From Leucobacter sp. OH1287 (GTDB lineage: Bacteria; Actinomycetota; Actinomycetes; Actinomycetales; Microbacteriaceae), in contig NZ_RQYM01000007.1 of NCBI RefSeq assembly GCF_003859945.1, positions 1 through 64,000 on the forward strand: a stretch of DNA of 64,000 nucleotides, in the 5' to 3' direction. Numbering within the stretch: the first letter of the stretch is position 1; each line of letters opens with the position of its first letter. The notes beneath the pieces are model-generated. The model was not told the DNA's origin and made no database searches. It saw only the letters and a program-made list of their open reading frames with translations. Shown here one piece after another: positions 18,501-47,280 of the stretch. Made by a program: the position numbers and the translations under genes.

Positions 18501-18576
<76 letters not shown>

Positions 18577-44243: not shown

Positions 44244-45323
44244 TTACGACTCTTGGCCGAGCTCAGCCAGCCGCGACTCCTCATCCGCGTGGATACACGA
44301 GTCAATCACCGGGCCGAGTGCGCCGTTCATAACCTGGTCAAGGTTGTAGGCTTTAAAACCGGTGCGGTGGTCGGCGATGCGGTTCTCCGGGAAGTTGTAG
44401 GTGCGGATCCGCTCAGAACGATCCATTGTGCGGATCTGGCTCTTGCGGTGCGCGCTGGCCTCCGCCTCAGCTTCCTCCTGCTGTTTCGCGAGCAGGCGGG
44501 CGCGCAAAACACGCATCGCAGCCTCACGGTTCTGCAGCTGGCTCTTCTCGTTCTGCATCGCAACGACGATACCGCTCGGGAGGTGGGTGATCCGCACAGC
44601 CGAATCGGTTGTGTTAACCGACTGACCGCCCGGGCCGCTGGAACGGTAGACATCAATCTTCAGGTCGTTCTGATTGATCTCCACCTCCTCCGGCTCATCA
44701 ACCTCCGGGTAGACGAGCACACCGGTTGTTGAAGTGTGGATCCGCCCCTGCGACTCGGTGACCGGCACGCGCTGCACACGGTGCACACCGCCCTCGTATT
44801 TCAGGTGCGCCCAGGCGCCCTGTGACGGATCCGTTGCGTTGGCTTTAATCGCAACCTGCACGTTCTTGTAACCGCCCAGGTCGCTCTCGTCGCTCTCCAG
44901 GATCTCGGTTTTCCAGCCCTTCGACTCAGCGTAGTAGCTGTACATCCGCAGCAGGTCGGCGGCGAACAGCGCGGACTCGGCGCCGCCCTCACCGCCCTTG
45001 ATCTCGAGGATAACATCGCGGGCGTCGTCTGGATCGCGCGGGATCAAAAGGCGGCGCACCTTCTCCTGTGCGGCGGCGAGCTCTGTCTCCAGCGCTGGCA
45101 CCTCGTCCGCGAAGCTCTCGTCCTCACGGGCGAGCTCCTTAGCGGCGCTCAAATCCTCACCGAGCTGCACCCAGTTTTCGTGGGCGGCCTTGATTTTGCT
45201 CAGTTCCGCGTAACGCTGGTTGACCTTCTTCGCCCTCGCCGGTTCTGAGTGCAGCGCCGGATCCGCAAGCTGCTCTTGCAGATCGGCGTGCTCAGCAAGC
45301 AGCGCATCTACTTGTTCAAACAT
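44244..45323 (-). CDS. prfA: peptide chain release factor 1
   Basis: Recognises UAA and UAG stop codons and triggers peptide release. It has 359 residues. The anticodon-like tripeptide region is in [18 protein letters not shown] (PVT), and the GGQ loop is [16 protein letters not shown]. It begins 32 bases after rho, the standard rho-prfA order. Its modifier PrmC is encoded 3.3 kb downstream instead of immediately after it. Confidence 0.97.
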
Positions 45324-45355: not shown

Positions 45356-47280
45356 TTATTTAGCGAGCTGCAGCACTGCGTGGACTGATTTAGTCGCAGC
45401 GATCTGCTTGTTCAGCTCGATTGAGTCTAGCTCACCGCTCTGCACTGCCTGCCGCAGCTGCCTAACAGCGTTTGCCGCCTGCTCACCAACCAGCTCGGCG
45501 GTGTTCAGCGCGAAACTGCTGATCACGTCGATTCCTGGTTCTGGGCAGACACCCTCAACGGTGATATCGGTTGTGTAAAGCCAGTTGGCAACGCGCTCCT
45601 GCTCCCGATCGTTTGCGGTGCTGAGCTGGTCCACTGCGGCGTAGATCGCGAGGGATCCGCCGTTTTCGACGTTGCGAGCCTGCGCGAGCAGGGTGCTGAG
45701 GGCGCGAGCGGTTGCTGGCTCGTAGCCGATGATGCTGCCCTTCTGCAGTGGGCTAACCGCGGAGATTGCGTCACCGTAGGCGGTTAGTGAGTCGAGCAGC
45801 ACAACCACGTCGTGTCCGAGCTCTACCAGGCGCTTTGCGCGCTCGAAGGCGAGCTCAACAACGGTCAGCTGGTCCTCCGCGCTGCGGTCTGCTGCGGCGG
45901 CGATAACCTCACCGCTGAATGAGCGGCTGAGCTCGGTAACAAGCTCTGGGCGGCCACCAACCTGCACGTACATCAGGTGTGTCTCTGGTGAGTTTTCCGC
46001 GAACGCGGCACCGATCTCGCGCAGCACGCCCGCTGCGAGGTGCGGTGAGTAGGCGGTAACAAGTCCGCGCTGGCCGAGTGCGAGCGGGGTTAGCGCACCG
46101 ATTGCCCGGCCGATTGGGCCCGCGTTCTCAGCAACGGCAACGTGGGTGTCGACTGCAACCGCTGTCAGTTTCTCAAACTCTACGCGCTCCTGTACCTCGG
46201 TTGCGGCGGTGCCGTTAACACTGTCGAGCTTCACCAGCGCGTTGTATTTCTGGCGGCCGTTGCCCTCGCCGTCGCGTGGTTGGCGGATCGCACCAACAAC
46301 CGCGTCACCCTTGCGCAGCCCGTGACGCTTCACCTGGCTGAGTGAAACATAGATGTCACTAACACCCGGCAGGTAGCCGCTGGTGCGCACAAAGGCGTAG
46401 TTGTCGAGCACGTCGAGGATACCGGCAACCGGGAGCAGCACATCGTCCTCGGTCAGCTCCTCAATCTCGTCCGCGGTGCGGCGCTTGTTGCGCTCACGCT
46501 GGCGGGTGCGCTGGCGTGACCGGCTGTCGTTCTTCGCGTCAGCGCGTGAGTCGGAACGGCTCTCGCTCTTGGCCTCGGCTGCTTTGGTCTCGGTTTTTGC
46601 GTATGCGCCCTCGGCTGTTTCTGCGGTGGATCCCGCTGCACCGGCTGCTCCCGCGGCTGCGGCTGCTACTGCCTCAGCGAGCTCCTTACCGACAGCGGCC
46701 GCTGCCGCCTCGGTGCTTGCTGCGCTGCTGTCAGCCGCTGCGGCTGTTTCAGGCAGCGGATTCTTGCGAGGACGACCACGACGACGCGGCGCCGGAGCAG
46801 CCTCCGCCTCAGCGGCAGGGGTCTCAGCAGCTGCGCCGGTTGCGCCCGCTGCTGCTGTTGCAGCGGCTGTACCGGTTGCTGCGGTCTCTGCTTTCGCCTC
46901 GGTCGCCGCAGCGGTCTCCTCCGGCAGCGGATTCTTGCGAGGGCGACCACGACGACGAGGCGCCGGAGCCGCCGGAGCAACCTCCGCCTCAGCGGCAGGG
47001 GTCTCAGCAGCAGCGCCGGTTGCGGCGGTCTCTACTTTCGCCTCGGTCGCCGCAGCGGTCTCCTCCGGCAGCGGATTCTTGGATTCTTACGTGGGCGACC
47101 ACGACGACGCGGCGCCGGAGCAGCCTCCGGCTCGCCGTCACCAACGGCTGGCGGAACCAGCGGCGCTGTCTGCGGGATTGATGATGGCACGGTTGCGCTG
47201 ATTGCGCGACGGCCAACGCGGCGACGCTTCGGGGCTACTGATTCGCCCTTCTCAGCGGTTGTGTTTTCGTTTTGCTCCAT
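45356..47280 (-). CDS. rho: transcription termination factor Rho, frame interrupted by 8-bp duplication
   Basis: Hexameric RNA helicase that ends transcription. The ATG at 47280 (good GAGAGGA site) opens MEQNENTTAEKGES and runs to RRRGRPRKNP. There an 8-bp tandem duplication (GGATTCTT at 47073-47080 and 47081-47088, plus strand) shifts the frame, which then ends at 47032. The downstream frame is open from 47086 to the stop at 45356 but meets TAA (47087-47089) just upstream and has no plausible start before the GTG at 46441. It holds an Ala/Glu/Arg-rich N-extension with RGRP AT-hook-like motifs, the cold-shock RNA-binding domain (GILDVLDNYAFVRTSGYLPG), and ATPase features (RGLVTAYSPHLAAG, VVVLLDSLTAYGDA). 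Removing 8 bp yields a continuous 638-residue protein. Whether it is a real mutation, phase-variable or a sequencing error is unknown. Confidence 0.9.
46747..47088 (-). repeat. internal repeats encoding AT-hook-like motifs in rho
   Basis: Three copies of a block encoding APRRRGRPRKNP occur at about 46758, 46929 and 47073 (the plus-strand GGATTCTT ends), spaced 171 and 144 bp. A 47-bp stretch is identical between 46891-46937 and 47035-47081. The 8-bp duplication that breaks the gene sits at the end of the third copy, as expected from slippage in repetitive DNA. Confidence 0.85.

Follow-up and report, generated by a model that had tools for sequence, protein, structure and literature searches.

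The rho locus and its interrupted frame

In the window, that is, the whole stretch of 64,000 nucleotides that was analysed, rho lies on the minus strand in the standard hom-thrB-rho-prfA locus, the position of an ortholog. Its downstream neighbour prfA, at 44244..45323 on the minus strand, marks this locus, is intact, and starts 32 bp downstream of rho. The rho gene itself is divided between two frames. The N-terminal frame (47032..47280, minus strand) runs from an ATG at 47280 to a stop at 47032, where the sequence-only reading had also placed it, and encodes a basic product of 82 amino acids, the final 15 of them read in the shifted frame. The body frame (45356..47086, minus strand) is open for 576 codons, carries no other lesion, and closes with a stop that ends at 45356; the two frames overlap by about 55 nt.

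The change of frame coincides with a perfect 8-bp tandem duplication at 47073..47088: GGATTCTT stands there twice in tandem, as GGATTCTTGGATTCTT, or AAGAATCC on the coding strand. Two sister units of rho hold the same motif only once, at 46758-46765 and 46929-46936, as had been claimed. Over the span from 47280 to 45356 the gene counts 1925 nt, and the removal of 8 leaves 1917, or 639 codons, the exact multiple of three previously computed. Perfect 8-bp tandem pairs are not rare as such, with 1.1 expected and 2 found per 64 kb; this one is taken to be a duplication because the sister units are single-copy and the frame switches at that very point. A perfect 7-bp tandem pair also occurs at positions 18521-18534 of the window, where it separates two long open frames of one strand.

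The earlier statement that the downstream frame has no credible start is borne out as far as the RNA-binding domain: in the 603 nt of body frame ahead of the RNA-binding domain, no ATG, GTG or TTG was found. The first such codon is a GTG at 46441, preceded at 5 nt by GAGG; the CTG at 47071 becomes a further candidate once every start codon of table 11 is admitted. In all four other genomes of the window's genus (g1 hereafter), rho is a single open frame of 618-696 amino acids that begins with a plausible start. The lesion is consequently specific to this genome's assembly, and is either recent or false.

The affected region forms a tail that is disordered and basic and contains AT-hook-like repeats. 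Three units RRRGRPRKNP are found on the minus strand: the first in the protein (47080..47109), the only one in the N-terminal frame, has the duplication at its end, and the second (46928..46957) and third (46757..46786), both in the body frame, each contain a single GGATTCTT. A 47-bp exact repeat at 47035..47081, whose partner lies at 46891-46937, also ends at the duplication. The Rho_N domain of canonical relatives is missing here. Repeats of the AT-hook-like RGRPRK type occur in the tails of three of the five g1 genomes, versus 1 of 100 canonical sequences. The repeats RRRGRPRKNPLP of window positions 46757-47109 are seen again in the tails of L114 and L116; other motor-less or intermediate Rhos described below, for example those of Leucobacter, have basic repeats of the KKRATRSRKK type instead.

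A Rho fold without motor residues

The gene encodes the only Rho of a genome that is 99% complete, and it scores 238.6-240 bits against TIGR00767, whose equivalog cut-off is 509. The Rho of canonical relatives reaches 600-650 bits, and scores across all five g1 genomes range from 211 to 287. A second intact rho was sought in the genome and none was found, the other matches being F1-ATPase-like and below 40 bits.

The low score is explained by changes that the alignment makes visible. The primary RNA-binding domain (Rho_RNA_bind, PF07497, 87.4 bits; 46205..46441, minus strand) starts at the in-frame GTG 46441 and is clear, versus a weak profile score for the ATPase domain of the same frame. The latter, a RecA-like domain of Rho fold (45359..46183, minus strand), is without the Walker A Lys, the catalytic Glu (E211), the Q-loop and R-loop consensus and the Arg finger. 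The former Walker A, at 46031..46054 on the minus strand, reads AYSPHLAA where [SA]PPKAGKT is expected; VDERPEEV has become VGGRPELV; neither loop matches its consensus any longer, and a residue other than Arg stands at the Arg-finger position. The primary RNA site still has its NYAFVRT, and Walker B its LLDS, within VVLLDSLT (45782..45805, minus strand), including the Asp.

A confident AlphaFold2 model, for which 61 related sequences were used, has a pLDDT of 90 and a pTM of 0.90; the structures that match it best are all Rho proteins, with TM-scores of 0.89 and 0.88 to M. tuberculosis Rho (7oqh). As far as alignment and model can tell, the protein has retained the Rho fold and lost its motor residues. 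The gene is thus a rho ortholog that fails the defining motor features, and its annotation as a functional termination factor should be avoided. Since NusG is present with a normal score, the elongation-factor set has not been lost as a whole.

For M. tuberculosis and Micrococcus luteus, Rho is reported to be essential, with catalytic residues that show high conservation (PMC8828861). The sequence-only reading had started from an intact, possibly essential Rho disrupted by the duplication; it did not mention the missing motor motifs, and its premise falls with them, the genus having lost these motifs before the duplication arose.

Motor loss in the Microbacteriaceae

In a sample of 400 Microbacteriaceae genomes, 346 pass the Rho cut-off. 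Some of those below it are fragmentary assemblies in which the gene is split or missing; the others cluster by genus. Two genera that looked degenerate by score, g65 and g83, were rejected: their sequences are canonical fragments at contig ends. Motor loss affects all five genomes of g1, most of the Leucobacter examined and several other lineages of the family, and intermediates are present. Outside the Microbacteriaceae, almost every Rho in the order is canonical.

Residues were tabulated for 148 aligned Rho sequences, of which 104 are canonical and 22 are “dead”, a class defined by the absence of the Walker A Lys. In the dead class the catalytic Glu is lost in 21 of 22 sequences, as is the R-loop Thr (21/22); the residues F64, R66 and Y80 of the primary RNA site (E. 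coli numbers) and the Walker B Asp are kept in all 22. The canonical sequences keep every tabulated residue, except that 3 of the 104 are without the Arg finger. Leucobacter, g72, g12 and g30 provide intermediates, in which Walker A is good and the Q- and R-loops are altered. Since they keep Walker A with altered loops, these intermediates suggest that the secondary RNA loops, which serve RNA translocation, were lost before Walker A and ATP binding.

In a tree of prfA, thrB and hom, g1 and g72 together form the sister group of Leucobacter, and the other affected lineages (g88/g30, g27/g20/g94, g12, g15, g18 and g16) lie elsewhere. Parsimony places eight changes of the Walker A Lys on this tree, an approximate number, since the tree was built by FastTree and has some weak branches, and one that does not give the direction of the state changes. 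Some of the affected Rhos have also lost C-terminal sequence, namely those of g88, g18 and the pair L148/L149.

Selection and genome footprints

The ratio dN/dS was measured on close pairs of dead Rhos in Leucobacter and g88 rather than in g1, where synonymous sites are near saturation. For the RNA-binding domain it lies at 0.03-0.14; the first half of the ATPase domain gives 0.07-0.16, and the remaining part 0.09-0.34. All values are below 1, so the genes are still selected as proteins. At a prfA identity of about 0.90, the identities of the RNA-binding domain and the two successive ATPase parts are 0.89/0.96/0.92 in canonical Rho and 0.82/0.59/0.43 in dead Rho. The order of constraint in canonical Rho is the reverse of that in dead Rho, which indicates a shift of constraint away from the motor and onto the RNA-binding domain. 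By these measures, motor-less Rhos are under purifying selection that is strongest on the RNA-binding domain, and from this selection we infer that the protein keeps a nucleic-acid-binding role in the relatives. Within g1, the C-terminal part of Rho is nearly unconstrained (dN 0.85-0.92), against 0.12-0.35 for the RNA-binding domain and 0.06-0.11 for prfA.

Purine bias of coding sequence is a footprint of Rho activity in Bacilli (PMC13323073). Here it does not differ between 11 dead-Rho genomes (0.501) and 10 canonical ones (0.499), a weak test, and one that is uninformative because canonical-Rho members of the family show no bias either. Intrinsic terminators at convergent gene ends gave no difference (5/124 versus 2/72) in an underpowered comparison that used a crude detector.

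A probably tolerated frameshift in a motor-less gene

We regard it as probable that this sole rho is a motor-less gene that keeps its RNA-binding domain and fold, and that it has recently acquired, and tolerated, an 8-bp frameshift in its tail. The older step, visible at the level of sequence and model, is the loss of the ATPase motor and the secondary RNA site in this lineage, the primary RNA-binding OB domain and the fold remaining. The Rho of this lineage would then no longer be a translocating terminator. In the later step, one 8-bp duplication, present in the assembly of this genome, puts the tail and the remaining protein in different frames. Because such a Rho could not translocate RNA, Rho-dependent polarity should be absent, and a stop some 80 codons into rho would consequently not silence prfA. 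With no motor function left to lose and transcription continuing into prfA, the frameshift is probably tolerated. The RNA-binding product, if any, would most likely start at GTG 46441. The relatives would use the protein as an RNA-binding factor, and perhaps as a DNA-binding one through the AT-hook-like tail. Of the options offered by the sequence-only reading, a tolerated reduction is thus the best supported: the frameshift it described is there in the sequence, and only the intact Rho that it presupposed is not.

On the best reading, then, the 8-bp frameshift is a recent event in the disordered AT-hook-repeat tail of an already motor-less Rho. An error of assembly or sequencing is less likely than this, and we consider it unlikely in itself. 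The true gene would then hold one GGATTCTT and one open frame, and still be motor-dead like its four congeners. Such an error is possible because the duplication sits at the end of the 47-bp exact repeat; moreover, rho is intact in the four congeners and is otherwise undamaged along the 576 codons of the body frame. However, a repeat of 47 bp is shorter than an ordinary short read, and platform errors do not usually take the form of an 8-bp insertion. Frameshifting duplications were also sought as a genome-wide set, the sign of a poor assembly, and no such set was found in 410 kb: the perfect tandem pairs of at least 12 bp are all multiples of three, except for one of 35 bp, which indicates that duplications of the frameshifting kind are not generally in excess.

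It is somewhat less likely still that rho in g1 is a dying pseudogene with no useful product. The missing motor motifs, the nearly unconstrained C-terminal part in g1 (dN about 0.85-0.92) and the truncations in g88, g18 and L148/L149 could all be read in this way. Yet the frames of 618-696 amino acids persist in four congeners, the dN/dS of dead Rhos is well below 1 with the residues of the RNA site invariant, and the gene persists through whole genera.

The two remaining explanations were raised by the sequence-only reading. A phase-variable switch, with rho active or silent according to whether the 8-bp unit has been gained or lost, appears improbable. A perfect duplication could slip back, and the long direct repeats in rho could recombine, but the unit is present in two copies only and not as a multi-copy tract; the four congeners, all of them other species, have one open frame with no break at the site; and the product lacks the motor through which switching would act as supposed. 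A programmed +1 or -2 frameshift, or slippage, joining the two frames is very improbable: the frames do overlap by about 55 nt in an otherwise undamaged gene, but the site has no homopolymer run or slippery heptamer, the relatives read straight through and need no shift, and the shift would have to offset a duplication unique to this genome.

Returning to the tolerated frameshift in a motor-less gene, a broader proposal can be put forward, though only tentatively, since we are a little more inclined to doubt it than to accept it: the Rho of Microbacteriaceae would repeatedly have been turned into a selected, motor-less RNA-binding protein, in bacteria that live without Rho-dependent termination and use it as a passive RNA or chromatin factor. 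In g1, the tail of AT-hook-like repeats may bind DNA as well.

Comparison with known systems

The nearest solved structure is that of M. tuberculosis Rho (TIGR00767; PDB 7OQH). The two proteins share the locus, the RNA-binding domain, the fold, the Walker B Asp, and a long disordered basic N-terminal extension. Unlike 7OQH, the Rho of the window is without the Walker A Lys, the catalytic Glu, the Q- and R-loop consensus and the Arg finger; it is also without Rho_N, has AT-hook-like repeats in its tail, and its frame is broken.

Lineages that have wholly lost rho are known, Bacilli included (PMC13323073). The loss of Rho-dependent termination, which here is deduced from the protein, would be common to both situations. 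In contrast with those lineages, however, the gene is kept here, its RNA-binding part is conserved, and the motor has been lost several times independently in one family.

A further parallel is with pseudoenzymes, the motor-less homologues of ATPases: in both cases the fold and the ligand-binding part are kept and the catalytic residues are lost. We know of no earlier example of a motor-less pseudoenzyme among Rho proteins. Literature searches on Rho proteins that are degenerate or lack Walker A, and on the Rho of Leucobacter and of Tropheryma, returned no relevant paper, within a survey of incomplete coverage. Provisionally, and within that coverage, a Rho with a kept RNA-binding part and a lost motor is apparently undescribed.

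The frameshift alone would be a minor further step in the decay of Rho, and of little interest by itself. The main interest lies in the fact that Microbacteriaceae have lost the Rho motor repeatedly, with this genome as an extreme example. With its RNA-binding half under selection, this repeated loss amounts to a natural experiment on the roles of Rho besides translocating. It becomes possible to ask in which order the parts of Rho can be lost, the secondary RNA loops appearing to precede Walker A, and how antisense transcription and polarity are controlled in a high-GC genome without a Rho motor.

Further Rho genes with signs of decay

Several individual cases deserve mention. Two Rhos of the Leucobacter clade end early (L148:1534-2508 and L149:1474-2448); in L148, Rho homology runs on past an in-frame TAG, which makes it a C-terminal truncation with remains. 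In g88 (L154-L158), five of five Rhos are motor-dead and their C-terminal part is absent; on the tree, they are independent of the Leucobacter clade. In another family of the order, the Rho of G617:C1 has an E-value of 9.2e-120, far below its relatives, and is possibly a further independent case outside Microbacteriaceae. Finally, in a 0.93-Mb Microbacteriaceae genome assembled as a single contig of 927,303 bases (G018), the Walker A of the Rho at L120:4881-5897 reads GRT instead of GKT, and the catalytic Glu is missing, but a Rho_N-like N-terminus is still present.
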